Shown: positions 53,296 to 64,000 of the stretch, piece after piece
Layout of the letters: every line of letters starts with the position of its first letter
Numbering within the stretch: the first letter of the stretch is position 1
Source: an uncultured Alphaproteobacteria bacterium
GTDB taxonomy: Bacteria > Pseudomonadota > Alphaproteobacteria > Methylaequorales > Methylaequoraceae
DNA length: 64,000 nt
Assembly (NCBI GenBank): GCA_902537615.1
Contig: CACBBU010000001.1
Location: 1-64,000 of the forward strand
Direction of reading: 5' to 3'
Notes under the pieces: model-generated
Told to the model about the DNA's origin: nothing
The model's input: only the letters and a program-made list of their open reading frames with translations
Databases searched by the model: none
Program-made: the position numbers and the translations under genes

Positions 53296-54330
53296 ATGAG
53301 TTTTCAAAGAAAAAAAGGGTCTCGCTCCAAAGAAATAAGTATAATTTTTAGTTTTTTTAAAAATCCAAAGTTACTTTTGGATTTTATTAAAGAAAATCCT
53401 AATGGTGCTAAATTTACTTTAGAAAATATAACTGTTGAATATGGAAAAATTCAAGGACTTATTAAAGATTTAGATTCAAACGAAAAAATGGATAGACCAT
53501 TTGATATTAACCCCAATTATATTGGACACATAGATAATCTGAATAATGAAAAAAAAAAATTAATAGAAAAAAAGTTTAATTTAGAAAAAGATTCACTTTC
53601 TTCAAAAACATCAAAAGTAGACTTATTAATAATTGATAACAATAAAGATATTTTCTATATTTCTTATAAAGATGAAACTACAACTAAGCTTGGTCAATTA
53701 AGTAAAACTAACTCATACGGGAAAGCTGAGTTATGTGGTTCGTTTGACAGTTTCAATATAATCAAAATGTTTTCCAATAGAATCCCTCAAAATTTGAAAT
53801 TTAGTGATACTTCTTTAACAGACATTCAGTTCAGTAAACTTAATGAGAAGGATAAAAAATTGGCCTTTATAAAAAAATCTTTTCCAAAAGAATGGTATAA
53901 AATTTGGAATGAAGAATTAAATAATGCTTATATTCAGTTGGAAAAATTTGGAAAGGTTTTGAAAGATGATAAAGATAGTTTGATAGAATTTATTAAATAT
54001 ACCTTTTCAGGAAATCAAAAAGATCTTGAAAATTTTTATCTTGTTTTTGGTAAAAAATCTTTCAAATTTTCTAAAATTTTAAAAAAATTAAAAGAAATTG
54101 ATCTATACGTCAATTCAAAAATATATGAAAGTGAAAAAGGAAAAAAATCATTATTAGTTTCAATTAAAATAAAAAATCAAATTTATGGATTAACAAAAAT
54201 AGAACCATCTTTTGATGGATTGAGAGATAATGTAAGTCAAACTAAAGGTATTATTTTTTATTTTCAAGACTATCCAGAAAACAAAAAATTGGGAAATAAT
54301 TTTAAAAGACTATTTCAAGATATAGTTTAA
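53296..54330 (+). CDS. probable type II restriction endonuclease (unit D)
   Basis: No family is recognised from sequence. The 344 residues are soluble and rich in Lys. They contain a stretch resembling a PD-(D/E)XK core: Asp109 in KVDLLIID followed by a strand IFYISYKDE with Lys125. The 3' end overlaps that of a cytosine-5 methyltransferase by 21 bases in convergent orientation. A lone methyltransferase paired with an unknown ~340-residue neighbour in a mobile unit is best read as a restriction-modification pair. Confidence rests on context more than motif. Confidence 0.6.
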   Translation: MSFQRKKGSRSKEISIIFSFFKNPKLLLDFIKENPNGAKFTLENITVEYGKIQGLIKDLDSNEKMDRPFDINPNYIGHIDNLNNEKKKLIEKKFNLEKDSLSSKTSKVDLLIIDNNKDIFYISYKDETTTKLGQLSKTNSYGKAELCGSFDSFNIIKMFSNRIPQNLKFSDTSLTDIQFSKLNEKDKKLAFIKKSFPKEWYKIWNEELNNAYIQLEKFGKVLKDDKDSLIEFIKYTFSGNQKDLENFYLVFGKKSFKFSKILKKLKEIDLYVNSKIYESEKGKKSLLVSIKIKNQIYGLTKIEPSFDGLRDNVSQTKGIIFYFQDYPENKKLGNNFKRLFQDIV

Positions 54331-55500
54331 AAGATTATCAGCAATCTCCCTTATAACTTTTACATTTACAGAATTACCTGCATGTTGATAGGCACAAGTG
54401 CTTTTTTCATGAGTAAAAAAATCTTCGGGAAAACCCTGTAGTTTCATTACTTCATTGATTGAAGCTTTTCTAAAATAACCTTTTCCATAAAATCTATTAG
54501 GTTCAAAATGACTAACATTGATTTTTGGAAGATTTTCTTTTTCATGTGGAAAATATATCGGCATAAATTTTGACCAAACTAAAGTTAGTGTAGGAACTAA
54601 GCCATAGGCATGATACCCTTGTCCAACGTTACCACCCTTACATAAATATGCTTGACCTACTCTTCTCATTCCGTCTTTATGGGCTGGTCGTTTATGCATA
54701 AAAGATCTGATGTTGGCACATTGTGATGATGAAAGCTCCAAGTCTTTAATGCGTATTTTTTTCACTACAGACATAAATGGATTTTTTTTATAAGGCTTCA
54801 AATTGAATTGAAGATTACTTGAAAAATCCTTGTGAACACCAATTATATAGACTCTCTTTCTTACTTGTGGCGAGCCTAACGTACTTGAGTCAATTTCCAA
54901 CCATCGTATATTATAATCTGATAATTTTTTAAGATTTTCCTCAATGAAATTCATTGTTTTGCCAACTATTTGAGGTTGAAATGATAATTTTGAAATGAAA
55001 TTACCTCCACCGTTTTTTTTTATACCTGGGACATTTTCAAGAATAAAACTTTTTGTTCTAAATTTTTTGATGAATTCCTCAATTTTATAATAAAACTGTC
55101 CTCTTTTATCTGTTAAACCTTTTTTCATTCCAGAATTTGAAAATGGCTGACAAGGAAAACCAGCCGTTAAAATATCTGCATCAAAATTATAGTCATTAAT
55201 ATTTATTTTATTAATATCTCCTTGTACGTCACACCTAAAATTTTTTTTGTAGACATTTCTACAACTTTTTTCTATTTCAGATGCTAAAACAACTTTAACT
55301 CCTTTATTTTTTTTTGATGAAGAAGCTAATAGACCCAAATGAAACCCACCTATACCAGAAAATAAATCAACGAGTTTTATATTACTCTCAAAGGGAGTAT
55401 GTATTAAATTTTCTACATAAGGTTTTTCTATTATTAGTTGATCATCAAATAGTTGTGGATCAAAATTTTCTTCAAATAAGTTTTTTTTTTGGGGTTTCAT
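54310..55500 (-). CDS. DNA (cytosine-5) methyltransferase (unit D)
   Basis: The 396 residues hold the C5-methyltransferase motifs in order: I (LVDLFSGIGGFHLGL, about 43-57), IV with catalytic Cys117 (AGFPCQPFSNSG), VI (ENVPG), VIII (QVRKRVYIIG), a variable recognition region, and X (GNSVNVKVI). The target sequence cannot be read. Methylation would protect host DNA from the product of the convergent gene. Confidence 0.93.
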   Translation of the reverse strand: MKPQKKNLFEENFDPQLFDDQLIIEKPYVENLIHTPFESNIKLVDLFSGIGGFHLGLLASSSKKNKGVKVVLASEIEKSCRNVYKKNFRCDVQGDINKININDYNFDADILTAGFPCQPFSNSGMKKGLTDKRGQFYYKIEEFIKKFRTKSFILENVPGIKKNGGGNFISKLSFQPQIVGKTMNFIEENLKKLSDYNIRWLEIDSSTLGSPQVRKRVYIIGVHKDFSSNLQFNLKPYKKNPFMSVVKKIRIKDLELSSSQCANIRSFMHKRPAHKDGMRRVGQAYLCKGGNVGQGYHAYGLVPTLTLVWSKFMPIYFPHEKENLPKINVSHFEPNRFYGKGYFRKASINEVMKLQGFPEDFFTHEKSTCAYQHAGNSVNVKVIREIADNLLNYILK

Positions 55501-55692: not shown

Positions 55693-56916
55693 TTAGTAAA
55701 GAGCTACCAACCTTTTAGATAGATTATTTTTATCAAGTTTTCTAAATAAATTAATAAGTTCATGTGTTGCTTTAGATGAATGATTAATGCTCTTTAAAAC
55801 AGCCGATAATACTTCTACGTAACTACTAATCGTTAATTTTTTATTATCTTCAAATAATTGACAAACGAGAAGAAAATCTGTCAAAGTTATAAAAAACACT
55901 ATACTTCTAATGAAATTATTTAACGAATTTTTAGAATTCATTATGCTATCAATATTTTTTAAAAATTCATTTATAAAGTAGTTTTTAAAAATAAAGTCAT
56001 TCTCTTTTCTAAATTTTTGGAATTTTGTATTGTAAATATTAGTAAATTGTTCAACAAAAGTTGTTTTAGGTGAAAACAAATAGTCACTTTTAAAAGCTGA
56101 TTTTTTACAGATCTTCCTAAATCTTGAATCTCTGAATTCGCCTTTACTATCAGCAAGACCATTAGAACTTTGACTCCCCAATTTACTTCTATCAACTAAT
56201 TTGGAAAAACAAAATGTTGCCAAAATATTTGCATCCGTATGAAGCAACTTTTTTTTTATTTTTTCATTTTCACTTTTTGAAAAATTATTAATGGAACTTT
56301 CACTACTATTTATTTTATCATAGGAGATGATTATTCGTTTAAGAGTTTTGAAAATCGTACTATTATCATTTATTTTAGAAAATACTTCTTCTACAAACCT
56401 TAATTTTTTATCAGATAATTTTTTTTTAGTTTGAAGTGAGAAAACATTATGAGAGTTAAAAATATTTGGTAATTTTTTTTTTTTTAATGTTTTAATGTTT
56501 AAATTTCTTTTACTTAAGCATAATCTAGCAATTTCAGGACATGATAATGAGCCTGAAATAAAACCTATTTTATCAAATGTTGTTATTTCTCTGGGATAAG
56601 TTGAACAACCAATTGATAAACTTTGCTGTCCCATTAACTTAAATGCATTACATAGTTTTTCCTTAGTTAAAAAGGGGCAACAATTATTTTCGTTAACTAA
56701 CTTTCCGTAATTAATATTTGATTTTAGATCGTCTTTAATCAAAGACTTTTGAGAGATTGATTTTATTTCTTTATTAGTTGAATTTTTATATTTTTTATAT
56801 GTTGCTTTATCAATTTTTATATTCCAACCAACACAACAAGAATCAATGCAGTCTTTTCCTATACATTTGAAGTCTTGTATATATTCGGGAAGGAAGAAAT
56901 TCTGATTTGTTTGCAT
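55693..56916 (-). CDS. fliB: FliB-like lysine-N-methylase family protein
   Basis: The 407 residues begin with the cysteine-rich FliB pattern FKCIGKDCIDSCCVGWNIKIDKATYKKY (about 10-38). CCPFL, CNAFKLMG and GCSTYPRE follow, likely metal or Fe-S ligands. FliB methylates flagellin lysines in Salmonella. No flagellar gene is in this window, so either the target is elsewhere or the homolog acts on another protein. It stops 14 bases after repeat copy 5, so it may belong to a fifth, older unit whose outer repeat is lost. Confidence 0.8.
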   Translation of the reverse strand: MQTNQNFFLPEYIQDFKCIGKDCIDSCCVGWNIKIDKATYKKYKNSTNKEIKSISQKSLIKDDLKSNINYGKLVNENNCCPFLTKEKLCNAFKLMGQQSLSIGCSTYPREITTFDKIGFISGSLSCPEIARLCLSKRNLNIKTLKKKKLPNIFNSHNVFSLQTKKKLSDKKLRFVEEVFSKINDNSTIFKTLKRIIISYDKINSSESSINNFSKSENEKIKKKLLHTDANILATFCFSKLVDRSKLGSQSSNGLADSKGEFRDSRFRKICKKSAFKSDYLFSPKTTFVEQFTNIYNTKFQKFRKENDFIFKNYFINEFLKNIDSIMNSKNSLNNFIRSIVFFITLTDFLLVCQLFEDNKKLTISSYVEVLSAVLKSINHSSKATHELINLFRKLDKNNLSKRLVALY

Positions 56917-57236: not shown

Positions 57237-58079
57237 TCATCTTAATTCTTCAATTTCATAGATTGTAAAAAAAAAAGTTTGGTTATCTAAGTCTGGCTCC
57301 GCATTAAAAACACTAGCATCCAAACATTCATTTTCACTCATTTTTCCTCTTTTAAAACTACCTGAAAACTTTACAAAACTTGATACCTCTAAATTATAAT
57401 TAAAAAGTCCTGCTTCTTTGAAATTTAAGGCTTTTTTGATTAGTTTGCTATTTAGATTCGTATCCCAGATTGTATTGCCGAAATCATTTATATTTATTTC
57501 AATTTGGATCTCTCCACTATCATTTGCTATAACGCTTTTTACATGTCCTACCCAATTTTTTTTTGGGGCGAAAGCATCAAACTCATTAGATGAACACAAT
57601 TCTTTACTTGCTTGAATCCACATATATTTTTCTTTTGCTGAGTTAATATTTTTAGACATTTTTTGTTTTGTTGAATAAATCAAATTATTCATAAATTTTT
57701 GATCAGCAGGAGCGTCATTGTATCCGACAGTGTTTACATTATTTGATACTTTAAAAGACTCTTGTTTGTTTATCTTATCATCAATTGATTTGTTAGTTAT
57801 TTCTTGAGGTTCGTTGGATTGTTGAAGGGTCATCTTTGAACTTTTTGTAGTATTGATATTTTGTTTTGATTGTAATTTTTCTAGACAGAGCTTACAAATA
57901 TTATTTTCATTCCAACTTCTCACGGATGAATAATTTTTCAAATATTCAAGTCTTTCGTCAGTTTTACATGTATAAAACTCTGTTAATAAATCTATTTTTA
58001 AATTTTGAGGGTTACAAGTATCAGCGAAGGACTGAGAAAATAAATAAAAAAAAAATACACAAAATAGAAAAATAAACAT
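57237..58079 (-). CDS. secreted protein of unknown function
   Basis: The 280 residues have a clear signal peptide (about 1-19, ending SFADT) and a short Cys-containing region (TCNPQ, YTCKTDE, NICKLCLEKL) that could form disulfides. A polar low-complexity linker (about 75-130) follows, then a C-terminal domain of about 140 residues rich in beta strands (IQIEININDFG, LEVSSFVKFSGSFK, FFFTIYEIEEL). No family is recognised. It lies divergent from the PEGA/FGE operon, with 144 AT-rich bases between, and may be a periplasmic partner of it. Confidence 0.65.
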   Translation of the reverse strand: MFIFLFCVFFFYLFSQSFADTCNPQNLKIDLLTEFYTCKTDERLEYLKNYSSVRSWNENNICKLCLEKLQSKQNINTTKSSKMTLQQSNEPQEITNKSIDDKINKQESFKVSNNVNTVGYNDAPADQKFMNNLIYSTKQKMSKNINSAKEKYMWIQASKELCSSNEFDAFAPKKNWVGHVKSVIANDSGEIQIEININDFGNTIWDTNLNSKLIKKALNFKEAGLFNYNLEVSSFVKFSGSFKRGKMSENECLDASVFNAEPDLDNQTFFFTIYEIEELR

Positions 58080-58223: not shown

Positions 58224-60218
58224 ATGAATGACATCAATACTGTTTTACAAAGAGAAAGAGAAAAATACAAAGTTAGATCTTTTTATTTACTAGGTTTTAT
58301 TGGATTTATCTCAATCTTTGTCTATTTTTTTTTACTTCTCTCAAATGGTACTAAAATAATTGTTTTACCCGAAGAAGCAAAATTGAACGCAAAAGTAAAA
58401 TCTAAGAATTTTTTAGACCTAAGTTTTAACAATTATATTTATTCATTTTATTCAAAACCTGTTTTTTCCGTATCATCAAAAGGGTATAAAAAAATTATTG
58501 AAACCATTCCTCAAGAAAACAAAGGAAAATTTCACGAGGTTTTGATGACTGAACTTCCAGGTATTTTAAATGTAAATACCAATAATAAAAATAAAAATAC
58601 CCAATGGTTTCTTAATGATGAATTTATTTTTCAAGGAGAAAAATTAGAAATAAGCTTGCCTGCCGGACAATATAATTTAGCAGTTAATAACCCTTTTTTT
58701 GAAAGAAAAAATACTAATGTGATTATTGAAAAAGGGGAACCCAAAAACCTTGATTTAGAACTGAAAAATATAAATGGCTTTATAAAAATAGATTCAGAGC
58801 CTGCTAATGCAAATGTATTTATTAACCAAAAAAAAATTGGACAAACCCCAATAATTTTTAAAGATCAGGGCGGTGAATACATGATTGAAATTAAAAAAAA
58901 GAATTTTGAAAAAATCAATGAAACCATAATTATTACAAATCAAAATAAAGTAAACCAAAGAGACTATATTTTAGAACTTATTGAAGCAAAATTAAAAGTC
59001 ACAGCGAAACCAAAAGGGGGGATTTTAAATATTAATGGTCTGGTTTTTCAAACTGATAAATTTATAAACCTTAAATCTAATAATGAATATATTGTTTCAT
59101 ATGAAAAACCTGGTTTTAAAAAAAAATCTCTAAATTTAAATTTAAAACCTAATGAAGAAAGAACTGAGACCATTAATTTGGAAGAAGAATATGGTGCTGT
59201 TGAAATTATTTCACAACCAGAGGCAGAAATTTGGATTAATGGAAAATTATCTGGTCAAACACCTAAACTTGTTAAACTGAGAACCATCCAACAGACTATT
59301 GAAATTAAAAAAAAAAACTTCAGGTCTGTAATCAATAATATTTTGCCCAACGCAGATAAAAAAAAAATTTTAAATATTAATCTTATTGATGAAAAATTAG
59401 CAAGATTACAAGAGGCAAAACCCTCCTACAGTAATTCTATTGATATAGAAATGAAATTATTTAATCCAAAGGGTGATGTATTACAATTAGGGGCCAAACG
59501 CCATGAAAAAGGGCAAAGAGCAAATGAAATTTTGAGAAAAGTGAATCTTACTAAACCCTTTTATGTCTCTTTATACGAAGTATCAAATGAAAATTTTGCC
59601 AATTTTAAAAAAAATAAATCATCTGCAAATATAAACTTCCCTGTAAGTAATGTTTCTTGGATTGAAGCTGCAGCTTTCTGCAATTGGTTAAGTAAAAAAG
59701 AAAAACTTGAGGAATTTTATGTCATAAAAAATGGCAAACTAATTGATTTCAAGGAAAATGCAAATGGTTATAGATTACTAACTGAAGCTGAATGGGAATG
59801 GTTATCAAGAAAAGCCAACAAGAAAAAATCAACCAAATTTAGTTGGGGTGATAGTTTTATAATTCCCGATAATTATCTTAATATTGCTGATGAAAGTGCT
59901 CAAAGCAATCAAAGGAACTATGTAAAAGATTATGATGATGGTTATGAAAATCTTGCAGAAATTGGCAGTTTCAATAAGGAAAAATCTGGATTATTTGATT
60001 TATCAGGTAATCTTAGTGAATGGGTTCATGATTATTATACAGTTACTTTCTCCGATAAAATAGAAAAAGATCCATTAGGTAAGAAAAAGGGGTCCAGTCA
60101 TGTAATTAAAGGTGCAAACTGGAGTTCTGGTACATTAACAAAAATTAGGCCTAGCTATAGAGAAAATGGTATAAATGGAAATGAGACAACTGGTTTTAGA
60201 ATAGCAAGATATTTATGA
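58224..60218 (+). CDS. membrane-anchored PEGA and FGE-like domain protein
   Basis: The 664 residues run: one membrane helix (about 19-40) with a cytoplasmic N-terminus, an extracytoplasmic part with about three PEGA repeats (about 186-252, 256-320, 323-390), and a C-terminal formylglycine-generating-enzyme/SUMF1 fold (about 405-664). Landmarks of the last are YEVSNENFANF, VSNVSWIEAAAFCNWLS, YRLLTEAEWEWLSRKA, FDLSGNLSEWVHDYY, and GFRIARY. The catalytic Cys pair of true FGE is absent: HVIKGANWSSGTLTKIRPSYR has Ser where Cys is expected. A binding or sensing role is therefore likelier than catalysis. Its stop overlaps the start of the next small gene (ATGA). Confidence 0.85.
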   Translation: MNDINTVLQREREKYKVRSFYLLGFIGFISIFVYFFLLLSNGTKIIVLPEEAKLNAKVKSKNFLDLSFNNYIYSFYSKPVFSVSSKGYKKIIETIPQENKGKFHEVLMTELPGILNVNTNNKNKNTQWFLNDEFIFQGEKLEISLPAGQYNLAVNNPFFERKNTNVIIEKGEPKNLDLELKNINGFIKIDSEPANANVFINQKKIGQTPIIFKDQGGEYMIEIKKKNFEKINETIIITNQNKVNQRDYILELIEAKLKVTAKPKGGILNINGLVFQTDKFINLKSNNEYIVSYEKPGFKKKSLNLNLKPNEERTETINLEEEYGAVEIISQPEAEIWINGKLSGQTPKLVKLRTIQQTIEIKKKNFRSVINNILPNADKKKILNINLIDEKLARLQEAKPSYSNSIDIEMKLFNPKGDVLQLGAKRHEKGQRANEILRKVNLTKPFYVSLYEVSNENFANFKKNKSSANINFPVSNVSWIEAAAFCNWLSKKEKLEEFYVIKNGKLIDFKENANGYRLLTEAEWEWLSRKANKKKSTKFSWGDSFIIPDNYLNIADESAQSNQRNYVKDYDDGYENLAEIGSFNKEKSGLFDLSGNLSEWVHDYYTVTFSDKIEKDPLGKKKGSSHVIKGANWSSGTLTKIRPSYRENGINGNETTGFRIARYL

Positions 60219-60346
60219 ACTTAAAAAAAAAAATAATAATTTTTATCATGTTAATTTTTACATGTTTTATATGCTACAATATTATTGAGGCTGGAGGCCT
60301 GAGTATTTCGTTAAATACTCCAATTTCTTTTCCGGTTGATATTTAA
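60215..60346 (+). CDS. 43-residue small membrane/secreted protein
   Basis: A short frame between the PEGA/FGE gene and the channel gene. It starts at an ATG overlapping the upstream TGA and ends with a TAA that shares its last A with the next ATG. The product is a basic N-terminus, a hydrophobic helix (about 7-24), then AGGLSISLNTPISFPVDI. The exact fit into both overlaps argues it is translated. It could be a small subunit or leader of the channel complex. No family is recognised. Confidence 0.65.
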   Translation: MNLKKKIIIFIMLIFTCFICYNIIEAGGLSISLNTPISFPVDI

Positions 60347-61101
60347 TGAATAATTTACTCAAGAACTCTTTATTTTTAATTTTTATAGTTATCATTGTAC
60401 ATTTTATTTTTTCTGGTTTTATAAGACCTGAAGCAAACTTGATAATTGAAACAGCCAAGAACACGCAAACGTCTGTCCCTAGAAATTTCTATATTATTGT
60501 AAAAGACATTGAACAAGAAATTTGTTTCATATTGTTAATTTGGGGAGTTTTTTTAATACTTCAAAAATGTCTTAAAATTATCAATTCAAACTATCTTTTT
60601 AATATTGACCTTATTGAAAGACAAATTGAAACTAAAAAAACAGCAGAAGAAGTTATTAACAAATTAAATAATCAGCTTGATAAAAATCTTAAAGAAACCC
60701 CCCTTATCGAATCTATAAATCTTGCATTACTTAGATACTCTCAAACAAAAAATGTTCAAAATGTTTCGGATTCAATTAAAAGTAGTATTGAAATGCTATC
60801 AACAAAACAAGATAGTGATAACGCAATGATTAGATATTTAATATGGGCCATACCTTCTGTTGGTTTTATTGGAACTGTCAGAGGCATTGGATTAGCATTA
60901 TCAAATGCTGATAAGGCAATTGCGGGAAATATTTCATTAATGACTGAAAATTTGGGAATAGCTTTTAATTCAACTTTTGTTGCATTAATCATTAGTTTAA
61001 TTTTAATGCTTTTTTTCCATCAGCTACAAAAGCTACAAGATGAAAATTTAGTTGATATTCAAGAATATTGTGAAAAATATCTTTATTCTAAATTTACATA
61101 A
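60346..61101 (+). CDS. MotA/TolQ/ExbB-type channel protein
   Basis: The 251 residues have membrane helices at about 7-24, 57-74, 165-187 and 206-226. The family signature is in the third and fourth helices: IPSVGFIGTVRGIGLALSNAD and NLGIAFNSTFVALIISLIL. Proteins of this family form the pentameric stator that channels protons or sodium ions, driven with a MotB/TolR/ExbD partner. The next two genes have N-termini that could supply this partner helix. The cytoplasmic loop (about 75-160) is helical. Confidence 0.88.
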   Translation: MNNLLKNSLFLIFIVIIVHFIFSGFIRPEANLIIETAKNTQTSVPRNFYIIVKDIEQEICFILLIWGVFLILQKCLKIINSNYLFNIDLIERQIETKKTAEEVINKLNNQLDKNLKETPLIESINLALLRYSQTKNVQNVSDSIKSSIEMLSTKQDSDNAMIRYLIWAIPSVGFIGTVRGIGLALSNADKAIAGNISLMTENLGIAFNSTFVALIISLILMLFFHQLQKLQDENLVDIQEYCEKYLYSKFT

Positions 61102-61104
61102 ATT

Positions 61105-62175
61105 ATGAAAAAGAAGAAACGTAACAATGATTTTAGCTTATCATTTTTAGACATTATGGCGTGCGGTTTAGGCGGAGTAATAATAATTTTTTTATTATTA
61201 GAAAATAAACCTACTTTCAAGATTAAAAAATCAAATACTAATAATGAAATATTAATAGAGCAAATTGAAAGCCTTACTAGTTCTAATCAAGAACTAAGTA
61301 TTGCTAATCAACAATTAGAGTTAGATATAGAAAATGAAAAGAATAAATTGTCCGCTATAAATAAGCAATTTGTAACTTTAGAGAAAACAATTGAAAGTGC
61401 AAACAAAAATACTCAAGATGTCAACAAAGAGGTCTCTCAACTGAAAGAAAAAATATCTAAAATGCCGCAGCAAATTATTGAAGATCCTATTTCAAATGAT
61501 GAATTTTATGAAGAAAATTATATTGAGGGTCTTACAATAGTAGGAGAAAAAATTTGTATATTACTTGATTCTAGTTCATCAATGACAGATGAAAAATTAT
61601 TAGAAATTATTAAAAGGAAGAATCTACCTGACGAAGAAAAAAAAAAAGGTCCAAAGTGGAAGAGAAGTTTAGAAATTGTAAAGTGGATTTTAGCTAGAGC
61701 ACCAAAAGACAGTGATATTGCTGTAATACGGTTTAGTGAGACAGCAAAATATATTGCCAAAGAATCCTTCCAAACCAAAAATAAAAATGATTTAAGAAAA
61801 ATTTTTTTAGGTTTAAATAATATAACTCCTGACGGGCCCACAAATTTGTTATCTGCTTTAATACAGGCAGCAAAATTTAAACCAACAAATATTTATCTAA
61901 TAACAGATGGATTACCAACTTTTGGTGGAGAAAGATTCAAAAGTTTGAATCCATTTAATAAATGTGATTCTATTATTGGTTCCTCAAATAAAATATCTGG
62001 TGATTGTAGAGTAAAATTATTTAATCAGAGTATAAAATATGTAAGCACCAATGGAGCAAAAATAGATATAATTCTACTACCCGTGGAGGGAGATCCCCAA
62101 GCCTCACCTGAAATGTGGAAATGGGCCTCTGACACAGGTGGTATATTAATAAGTCCAGCAAAAAGTTGGCCATAA
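61105..62175 (+). CDS. TM/coiled-coil/vWA-domain protein 1
   Basis: The 356 residues have a basic N-terminus, one membrane helix (about 13-33; SFLDIMACGLGG) with an Asp near its start as in MotB, TolR and ExbD, a coiled coil (about 47-120), and a von Willebrand A domain. The vWA part has a perfect MIDAS (LLDSSSSM, Asp155-x-Ser-x-Ser) and a Thr/Asp region (ITDGLPTFGG). This suggests a stator subunit whose peptidoglycan-binding domain is replaced by a metal-dependent binding domain outside the membrane. It starts three bases after the channel gene. Confidence 0.85.
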   Translation: MKKKKRNNDFSLSFLDIMACGLGGVIIIFLLLENKPTFKIKKSNTNNEILIEQIESLTSSNQELSIANQQLELDIENEKNKLSAINKQFVTLEKTIESANKNTQDVNKEVSQLKEKISKMPQQIIEDPISNDEFYEENYIEGLTIVGEKICILLDSSSSMTDEKLLEIIKRKNLPDEEKKKGPKWKRSLEIVKWILARAPKDSDIAVIRFSETAKYIAKESFQTKNKNDLRKIFLGLNNITPDGPTNLLSALIQAAKFKPTNIYLITDGLPTFGGERFKSLNPFNKCDSIIGSSNKISGDCRVKLFNQSIKYVSTNGAKIDIILLPVEGDPQASPEMWKWASDTGGILISPAKSWP

Positions 62176-63110
62176 TGAAAAAAAAAAGGGATTTAGAAAA
62201 TACACTTTTTTCATTCTTAGATGTTATATCTTGTGGGTTTGGGGCTATTGTCATGTTGGTGTTAATTTATAAATTTAATCCCAGTGAAAATATTGAAAAT
62301 TATGACGAAGATAATGAGAGTTACATTTTTAAAATAAATGAATTAAGAGAAATTAATGATCAATTAAAGAAAACAAAAGAACAATTAAATAATAAGATTT
62401 TAGAAATTAATAAAAAATTTTTAGAGGTTAAGAATTCTATACAAAATAAACAAAATTCACTCACATCAATTGAAGAAAAGAAAAAAGATCTTAAAGATTC
62501 TGCAGAAGCGTTAAAACTTGTTGAGAATAATCTCAAGTCCTATTCACTGAAAAAGAAAAAGGAAATTGTAAGGGATATTGAAGTTGGTGGAATTCCTGTA
62601 GATAGCGACTATGTCATTTTTATAGTTGATACATCTGGAAGTATGTTGACGATCTGGGATAAAGTTTCTAACAAAATTGAAAATATTTTAAAAATTCACC
62701 CAAACGTCAAGGGTTTTCAAATATTGAATGATATGGGAGTTCCTCTCATTTCTGGTTACAAAAATAAATGGATACCAGATACACCAACTTGGCGTAAAAA
62801 TTCATTAAAATTGTTCAAAATGTGGGTTATTGCCTCAAACAGTAGTCCTCTAGAAGGTATTGAATGGGCACTTATAAAATATTCAGATCCTAAAAAGTCT
62901 GTAGCAATTTATGTGATGGGAGACGATTATACAGGCGGAGATTATGACATAGCAATTAATAAAATAACAAATTTAAATAAAAAGAAAAAATTCAAGACAA
63001 GAATTCATGCAATTGGTTTTCTTGCTCAAGATACAACAGATAGATTTTCAATTATTATGCGTGAAATAACGAAACAAAACAACGGAACTTTTATCGCTTT
63101 GCCCAGGTAA
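62175..63110 (+). CDS. TM/coiled-coil/vWA-domain protein 2
   Basis: Paralogue in layout of the preceding gene, 311 residues. It has a membrane helix with SFLDVISCGFGAIVMLVLIY (note the shared SFLD-x3-CG-x-G pattern), a coiled coil (about 45-125) and a vWA domain with MIDAS FIVDTSGSM (Asp152). The frame could extend to a TTG at 62166, but ATG 62175, overlapping the upstream TAA by one base, mirrors the junction at 60346 and is preferred. The C-terminus ends at FIALPR. Confidence 0.83.
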   Translation: MKKKRDLENTLFSFLDVISCGFGAIVMLVLIYKFNPSENIENYDEDNESYIFKINELREINDQLKKTKEQLNNKILEINKKFLEVKNSIQNKQNSLTSIEEKKKDLKDSAEALKLVENNLKSYSLKKKKEIVRDIEVGGIPVDSDYVIFIVDTSGSMLTIWDKVSNKIENILKIHPNVKGFQILNDMGVPLISGYKNKWIPDTPTWRKNSLKLFKMWVIASNSSPLEGIEWALIKYSDPKKSVAIYVMGDDYTGGDYDIAINKITNLNKKKKFKTRIHAIGFLAQDTTDRFSIIMREITKQNNGTFIALPR

Positions 63111-63114
63111 TTTT

Positions 63115-64000
63115 TTAAATCTTTTCCAGGCAAATAATTTTCAATTGAACAGGCTCATTTTCCGTCAAATTGATATCTAAAAAAATATCTCTAAAACCTT
63201 TTTTTTTTCCTATAAAGTAATATTTTCCTGGAGGAAGCTGAATAATTTTTTCTTCTACTTTCCCAACTTTACCAATACCTCTAATTTCTATAAGAGTTTC
63301 GTTATCTGAAAAAATTTTTACATTAATTTTTGTTTCAGATTTTTTAATAATATCAGAGACCTCAAGATAATTTTTTTGAAGCGATGGACTTATATCCAAG
63401 TATTTTTCTGAACTTTTAAGATCACTGAGAACCGCGTTTTTAAATTTTTGATTCGTTAACCTATGTAAGTTTTTGGAATGACTTTTTAAACTTTTTTTTA
63501 AAGATAAAATTTCCTCTGTCATTTCAATTTTTTCTCTAATAAAAGCATCATTACTTTCTAGTTTTTCAATTTTCTTGAGATTAAGCAATGAACTTTCCCA
63601 ATCATCATTAGTGGAAGCAACATTAAAATTAGTAAGTAAATCTTTTTTTATTTTTTCTTCTTTAAGTTTATCTAATTTGTCCTCAAATAAGTTTATCTCA
63701 GGTCTATTTGGTAAAATTTTTTTTGCTTTGATTAGGAAGTTTTCTGCATCTTTAATATTTCCATCTTTAAAAAATTTTTCTGCTTTATTCATTTTCTTTG
63801 CAAATTCTAATTTAGCTATTGTGAGACTTAAATTTTTTATTTCATCATCTAATTCAGTGTTTCTTTCTATTTGACTGAGCTTTTGCATTAAAAGTAATTC
63901 TTTTTTTTTATTATTCTCGCTTCTGGCGGTCTCTAAGCTTTCAAGAATTTGAATTTTTTCTGGAAGCACTTTTATCTTAGTTCTTAATTTTTTAGCCTCT
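63115..64000 (-). CDS. coiled-coil/TPR-like protein with C-terminal PEGA-like domain, partial
   Basis: The frame is open to the right window edge (an apparent GTG start at 63969 is internal), so the N-terminus lies beyond the window. About 295 residues are visible: helical, TPR-like repeats (KAEKFFKDGNIKDAENFLIKAKKILP) and a C-terminal ~75-residue beta domain resembling PEGA (VEEKIIQLPPGKYYFIGKKKG). It converges on the vWA operon with four bases between stops. The PEGA-like end suggests it belongs to the same system. Confidence 0.75.
   Translation of the reverse strand, partial: EAKKLRTKIKVLPEKIQILESLETARSENNKKKELLLMQKLSQIERNTELDDEIKNLSLTIAKLEFAKKMNKAEKFFKDGNIKDAENFLIKAKKILPNRPEINLFEDKLDKLKEEKIKKDLLTNFNVASTNDDWESSLLNLKKIEKLESNDAFIREKIEMTEEILSLKKSLKSHSKNLHRLTNQKFKNAVLSDLKSSEKYLDISPSLQKNYLEVSDIIKKSETKINVKIFSDNETLIEIRGIGKVGKVEEKIIQLPPGKYYFIGKKKGFRDIFLDINLTENEPVQLKIICLEKI

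Follow-up and report, generated by a model that had tools for sequence, protein, structure and literature searches.

The kinds of 5:2 ion-driven motors with a known job are few and serve flagella, the Ton and Tol systems, gliding motility and the type 9 secretion system (T9SS), and Zorya. Among them, GldLM energises the T9SS and ExbBD energises Ton-dependent import, and the proton-path residues of MotAB, ExbBD and TolQR are the threonines of the two pore helices together with an aspartate in a transmembrane (TM) helix. vWA proteins with a TM tether, found together with tolQ-like genes, have recently been described; according to that report, tolR/exbD are lacking, the vWA proteins mostly form heterologous pairs and carry the proton-binding Asp, and AlphaFold3 models place the helices of the vWA proteins inside the TolQ-like pentamer (Williams-Jones et al., Mol Biol Evol, June 2025; PMC12204202). 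Here we analyse a locus at the end of the window, our term for the whole stretch of 64,000 nucleotides that was studied (positions 1 to 64,000 of contig CACBBU010000001.1 from an uncultured alphaproteobacterium), which contains such a motor core within a co-inherited set of eight genes, named G1 to G5 and C3 to C5. We think it more likely than not that the product of this locus is an accessory trans-envelope machine powered by protons, in which a heterodimeric vWA axle sits in a channel pentamer and is coupled to a periplasmic and outer-membrane scaffold.

An eight-gene set in two proteobacterial classes

Five genes on the forward strand, G1 to G5, occupy positions 58224 to 63110 of the window. 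They are joined by an ATGA overlap between G1 and G2 (60215-60218), a TAATG between G2 and G3 (60344-60348), a 3-base gap between G3 and G4 (61102-61104) and a second TAATG between G4 and G5 (62173-62177); re-reading of the open reading frames (ORFs) and junctions returned all five ORFs and all four junctions as the initial annotation of the window had given them. The five-gene operon proposed there consists of real genes, but the set is larger, as three more genes run past the window edge. The source contig extends beyond the window to 161,787 bases, of which we read the ORFs as far as position 76,000, and belongs to a 79%-complete assembly of 46 contigs. Clustering of all ORFs around related loci revealed that C3 (63115..64000 in the window and on to contig position 64734), C4 (contig 64764-65987) and C5 (contig 66033-66602), all on the reverse strand, travel with G1-G5.

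The eight genes are present in every one of the 27 distinct alpha- and gammaproteobacterial loci that no contig end interrupts, a count for which the divergent small genes of loci L046, L111 and L112 were assigned by hand. The order C5-C4-C3-G1-G2-G3-G4-G5 on a single strand is found in 22 of these complete loci; in the other five, all from the window's own family, C3-C5 are inverted behind G5. A gene order that returns in each of these 27 loci cannot be a chance arrangement, and the expectation that the first five genes, including the small one, would be conserved together was borne out. Within the window's family, all eight genes gave dN/dS values (ratios of non-synonymous to synonymous substitution rates) of 0.04-0.37 against the window copy, indicative of purifying selection, with the caveat that the 43-codon gene G2 has few changes and that one pair without the window copy gave a value of about 1. 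No recognised cytoplasmic enzyme domain is present in the conserved genes, and every one of their products appears to be a protein of the membrane or envelope.

The channel subunit and its paired vWA partners

G3 (60346..61101, forward strand) encodes a channel subunit of the MotA/TolQ/ExbB family (PF01618, E = 1.8e-12; 47.5-49.3 bits against a cut-off of 22.9). Its pore-helix (TM3-TM4) motifs GFIGTVRG and AFNSTFVAL are conserved and MotA/ExbB-like, the conserved Thr/Gly/Pro motifs reading IPS-GF-GTVRGIG and AFNST-VAL. Thr177 of the GTV motif (60874..60876), which we take to occupy the position of the ExbB/TolQ pore threonine, and Thr210 of the AFNST motif (60973..60975), the second pore Thr position, are both invariant in alignment A1 and in the family alignment. 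A search of the PDB sequences with the G3 profile gave nothing meaningful.

The two following genes on the same strand, G4 (61105..62175) and G5 (62175..63110), each encode one N-terminal TM helix with an aspartate, Asp16, within the motif (S)FLD-x3-CG-x-G, followed by a coiled coil and a vWA domain. Asp16 of G4 (61150..61152; FLDxMxCGLG in the alignment) is a MotB/ExbD/TolR-type proton site, and Asp16 of G5 (62220..62222; SFLDVISCGFGA) is invariant in 19 sequences; the residue was found in the TM helix of every G4 and G5 member examined, for G4 also at loci with a CTG start codon. Such a start apparently occurs at several loci (L039, L040, L044, L113-L115), with TTG or GTG at others, and this rare start codon may keep the level of G4 low relative to that of the pentameric channel. 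Both genes are present at every complete locus and can be distinguished by profile. No Pfam or NCBIfam match to an ExbD or OmpA/MotB domain follows the TM helix in G4 or G5, and none of the conserved genes was recognised as coding for ExbD, TolR or MotB.

The vWA domain of G4 was matched by VWA_2 (E = 7.7e-6; 26.9 bits, just under the cut-off of 27.0) and possesses a complete metal ion-dependent adhesion site (MIDAS), formed by the DSSSS stretch (DxSxS; 61567..61581; D155-x-S-x-S), T246 and D268, with D155, S157, S159, T246 and D268 all invariant. One weak vWA-type match (8s05, 2e-5) came from a search of the PDB sequences with the G4 profile; the three profiles searched in this way otherwise yielded mostly chance matches to coiled coils. 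By sequence, the vWA domain of G5 gave a weak match (E = 0.002), but profile-profile comparison makes G5 a homologue of G4 over its full length (hhalign, 99.6% probability, E = 3e-24), and the AlphaFold2 (AF2) model of G5 (mean predicted local distance difference test score, pLDDT, of 76), with its TM helix, long coiled-coil helix and alternating strands and helices, matches vWA structures (ANTXR2) with E-values down to 1.2e-7. Its MIDAS is a variant, in which an invariant DTSGS (62628..62642) and a GDD are present but SNSS replaces the Thr loop. The view of a stator whose ion channel works with two unlike vWA proteins, each bearing a proton-binding Asp in its TM helix, is therefore supported by our data; of the two MIDAS-containing vWA domains that were part of it, the one in G4 is canonical, and the one in G5 departs from the full site. 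Just ahead of the first vWA strand of G5, residues 138-145 (GGIPVDSD; window 62586-62609) belong to a conserved GGIPVDSDY stretch that resembles the tail SFPVDI of the G2 product considered below, a likeness that may be due to chance.

Some relatives of these genes occur in other surroundings. Second-tier relatives of G3 (loci L018 and L048-L053) adjoin, as judged by eye, FHA-, Ser/Thr-kinase- and PP2C-like genes; most of these loci carry one or two vWA genes, and an FGE or small gene was not found at them, so that they apparently represent a different, signalling-linked system. The window genome itself holds, on contig C23 (L021:1551-2859), an ExbB-like gene followed by a gene for a small single-TM protein with an aspartate in its helix, a pair that is not closely related to the eight-gene system.

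Envelope components

G1 (58224..60218, forward strand) encodes a protein of 664 amino acids with a TM anchor (residues 22-40), a beta domain of unassigned type, three PEGA repeats (Pfam, E = 1.7e-23 over three stretches) and a C-terminal domain with the fold of formylglycine-generating enzymes (FGE; Pfam FGE-sulfatase, E = 1.3e-31). These matches and the N-terminal helix agree with the architecture that had been assigned to G1 initially, and the gene is conserved at all related loci. In a family alignment of 24 sequences, the FGE domain shows no conserved pair of catalytic cysteines towards its C-terminus; the one mostly-Cys column, at position 486 (19 of 24), is not this C-terminal pair. We consequently rejected G1 as a catalytic formylglycine-generating enzyme, and since the pair is missing, its FGE domain is probably a binding module instead.

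The 539-residue product of C3 is a helical, TPR-type (tetratricopeptide repeat) periplasmic protein whose beta-rich C-terminal tail is conserved; its gene groups with the rest of the set at every related locus, and its homologue at L112 gave TPR matches in Pfam (1e-12). C4 encodes a lipoprotein of 407 amino acids with an invariant lipobox Cys. In its AF2 model (mean pLDDT 75), residues ~40-280 are well predicted, and this N-domain, which is followed by a glycine-rich hydrophobic segment, was matched by Foldseek to the TolB N-domain and to PelC (probability 1.00, E about 3e-3). The model provides a lead, not proof, that the N-domain of this outer-membrane-type lipoprotein is TolB/PelC-like. The C5 protein (189 amino acids) has a signal-peptide-like N-terminus and a conserved C-terminal motif, WNEYRKYKGLP.

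In two large gammaproteobacterial genomes (G515 and G721; loci L111 and L112), the operon contains between G3 and G4 an extra gene for a protein of 434-451 amino acids, which is without Pfam matches and looks actin/Hsp70-like by eye. Also encoded in this operon are a pair of lipoproteins, an M48 peptidase and a TPR protein that matches TonB_C weakly.

An exported microprotein with a nearly fixed tail

G2 (60215..60346, forward strand) encodes a microprotein of 43 amino acids composed of a signal sequence and a tail of the form SLNxPxSFPVDI. A small ORF of 38-95 amino acids lies between the FGE-fold gene G1 and the ExbB-type gene G3 at every related locus where this region is uncut; the initial view of the 43-residue protein as the product of a real gene is hence well founded, and a spurious ORF was rejected on the ground of this conservation. 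The N-terminus is hydrophobic and resembles a signal sequence, in which an AxA-type site can often be made out by eye. At the opposite end, the pentapeptide FPVDI (60329..60343), with its free C-terminus, corresponds to a tail that reads [FY]P[VI]DI, or FPxxM in one gammaproteobacterial group, and that is always located at the very C-terminus. A [FY]PxxI/M C-terminus was counted in 37 of 37 small genes, which include five duplicate fetches and therefore stand for 32 distinct contigs, and in none of the 5009 other ORFs of 30-100 amino acids from the same loci (5046 such ORFs overall). As the part that connects the signal to the tail differs greatly in length while the tail itself stays nearly fixed, we regard the latter as probably a docking motif for assembly or gating.

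Distribution and genomic site

The named hosts comprise marine 'Rickettsiales' and other alphaproteobacterial metagenome-assembled and single-amplified genomes, Methylophaga, and metagenome-assembled genomes of Methylococcaceae, Crenotrichaceae (whose contig ends within the locus) and Porticoccaceae. Among 385 genomes sampled across the class, 10 contain a G3 orthologue (E below 1e-60), and an independent profile search for C4 retrieved exactly the same 10 genomes and no other. As they fall into eight genera, they do not represent 10 fully independent events. G3 and C4 agree also in a sample of 60 genomes of relatives, bar one contig that ends before C4, and G4 was found in 15 of 398 genomes sampled across the phylum, each with both vWA genes.

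Alpha- and gammaproteobacterial rows are intermixed in the G3 tree, with at least three gamma changes forced by well-supported branches; such intermixing is best explained by transfer between the classes. Plasmid and phage collections gave no tblastn match and viral contigs contained no relatives, for which reason we rejected the locus as phage or plasmid cargo.

In genome G002, from the same genus as the window genome, seven unrelated genes (L116:4742-12946) replace the cassette between a shared ABC permease gene and a FliB-like gene, beyond which the genes are 98-100% identical to those of the window. The replacement genes include those for an epimerase, a glycosyltransferase, an asparagine synthase-like protein and methyltransferases. 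Since G002 carries sugar-biosynthesis and other unrelated genes there, the cassette site is, at least in this pair of genomes, a variable spot that holds surface-related genes. The FliB-like flagellin lysine methylase gene bordering it lies at 55693-56916 of the window. Between this gene and G1, an ORF of 280 amino acids (57237-58079) with a signal-peptide-like N-terminus and no assigned family is divergent from G1; apart from the window, it was encountered in the nearest relatives alone (54% identity in genome G001). Further upstream, at 53296-55500, a dcm-like cytosine-5 DNA methyltransferase gene is convergent with a matchless ORF of 344 amino acids, possibly a restriction-modification pair.

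Discussion

The gene set, its co-inheritance, its domains and the conservation of its proton-path and MIDAS residues are direct observations. It is the Thr/Asp proton path, the MIDAS, the envelope-type genes, the C4 model and the lack of a conserved Cys pair in the FGE domain that lead us to view the locus as a 5:2-type motor with a load in the cell envelope, and they lend themselves to the following model. Five copies of G3 would form a channel in the inner membrane, and one copy each of G4 and G5 would insert their Asp-bearing TM helices into it to form a heterodimeric axle. This axle would be turned or flexed by protons flowing past its Asp residues and the Thr ring, and the coiled coils would pass the motion on to the two periplasmic vWA domains, which could grip their partners in part via their MIDAS sites. 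Likely partners would be a periplasmic scaffold of G1, C3 with its TPR repeats, and C5, reaching the outer membrane through the lipoprotein C4. G2 would be exported, and its tail would dock for assembly or gating. What we infer from the genes and their conservation is the 5:1:1 assembly, its motion, every one of these contacts, and that the machine remodels or moves some structure on the cell surface.

Several points weigh against this model. Metal binding at the MIDAS of G5 is doubtful, given that the site is non-canonical. The fold match of C4 is partial (best E = 0.0028; TM-score of 0.51 to PelC), its glycine-rich segment has low model confidence, and the AF2 models are single chains of two of the eight proteins, G5 and C4. 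Furthermore, the distribution is sporadic, with about 3-4% of the sampled genomes, and the function must therefore be dispensable. We only tentatively extend the model by proposing that the G2 tail docks onto the motor itself, perhaps at the vWA MIDAS, and thereby licenses or gates a distinct, horizontally spread, eight-part trans-envelope machine driven by ions.

The genes could alternatively specify a transport or secretion machine, whose motor would power the passage of a substrate through the outer membrane; the G2 peptide and a surface polymer are possible substrates. An FGE-fold protein beside a 5:2 motor parallels GldK/GldLM (T9SS hub, PMC12635249), the GldK model matches the FGE part of G1 (2.6e-18), C4 resembles PelC of Pel polysaccharide export, and the same site in G002 is occupied by sugar-biosynthesis genes. 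Nevertheless, no outer-membrane barrel, substrate gene or GldM/N homologue was recognised as conserved in the set, and the GldK match remains far below its own cut-off (66 versus 350 bits), as FGE is a large superfamily; we deem a secretion machine unlikely, if still worth considering. An outright T9SS identity was rejected, because the Gld/Por models matched just the FGE part and did so below cut-off.

Even less probable, in our estimation, is a sensor in which the vWA pair gates the channel on encountering a ligand in the envelope, for instance the tail of G2 or an envelope that is damaged, with ion flow or a change in shape as the signal. The MIDAS sites and the ligand-like exported tail peptide would suit a sensor, as would the FHA-, Ser/Thr-kinase- and PP2C-like neighbours, assigned by eye, of the second-tier channel relatives; yet the eight genes include none for a cytoplasmic output protein, and every proton-path residue characteristic of 5:2 motors that generate force is retained.

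Zorya-type anti-phage defence, in which the vWA proteins would detect phage at the cell envelope, would fit the sporadic distribution, apparent horizontal spread and variable genomic site of the locus and the DNA methyltransferase gene nearby, but we rejected this and other defence systems as most improbable, for PADLOC gave no Zorya match to G1-G5 and only weak coiled-coil or chance matches, the loci have no recurrent defence neighbourhood, and, in agreement with the initial annotation with respect to nuclease and helicase, the conserved set contains no nuclease, helicase or other effector. That the system substitutes for Tol-Pal in lineages that lost it is scarcely credible despite the TolB-like N-domain of C4 and the TolQ-like channel, and was rejected, since TolB was kept in 22 and ExbD/TolR genes in 21 of 23 genomes tested, hosts and non-hosts alike, those without them being incomplete assemblies.

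An accessory proton-driven envelope machine consequently remains the reading that we favour. A motor known from prediction thereby gains a full list of co-inherited parts, among them a connection in the direction of the outer membrane and a microprotein that annotation would easily miss. Its role is amenable to genetic testing, as related cultured genera exist (e.g., Methylophaga). If true, a heterodimeric axle whose two binding domains differ would be a natural asymmetric rotor, and would turn the coupling of motor and load into a testable question.

How does this locus relate to systems that are already known? It shares with the MotAB stator the channel family and the Asp in the TM helix of the partner, but an OmpA-like/MotB domain is not present here and a motA-like gene stands elsewhere in the window genome, apart from the locus (L020:8934-9704). 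Zorya (ZorAB) likewise combines an ExbB-family channel with an Asp-bearing single-TM partner; PADLOC reported neither a ZorA/ZorB match nor ZorC/D/E at our locus. Tol-Pal (TolQRAB-Pal) resembles it in its inner-membrane ExbB-family motor and, on the strength of the C4 model only, in a TolB-N-like partner linked to the outer membrane; TolR, TolA, Pal or a TolB propeller were not recognised here, and the locus co-occurs with Tol-Pal genes. GldKLMN/PorKLMN are similar in that a 5:2-type motor cluster includes an FGE-fold envelope protein. They differ in that no GldM-type or GldN protein was recognised here, the axle domains are vWA and the hosts are Proteobacteria, and G1, in contrast to GldK, is not a lipoprotein but TM-anchored with PEGA repeats. 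No GldK/L/M/N or PorK/L/M/N model scored over its cut-off, the matches below it being to the FGE part alone.

The closest counterparts are the TPH-vWA/TolQ-like motors of Proteobacteria, in which a tolQ-like gene adjoins a heterologous pair of genes for vWA proteins with an Asp in the TM helix, and tolR/exbD are lacking (PMC12204202). Because the TolQ-like pentamer with Asp-bearing vWA pairs was predicted and modelled in that report, which made use of an Idiomarina cluster, the motor core is not the candidate new system for which it had initially been taken. The section on motors in the same report makes no mention of an FGE-PEGA protein, a microprotein, a lipoprotein or a 189-residue protein, and brings up a TPR gene solely for its other vWA family; PEGA, formylglycine and SUMF1 are absent from its main text, although its figures may draw such neighbours. 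The open-access literature yielded no other relevant paper that joins ExbB-type channels with PEGA, FGE or SUMF1 and vWA. Relative to the searchable literature, it is the whole eight-gene set, and not its motor core, that is new.

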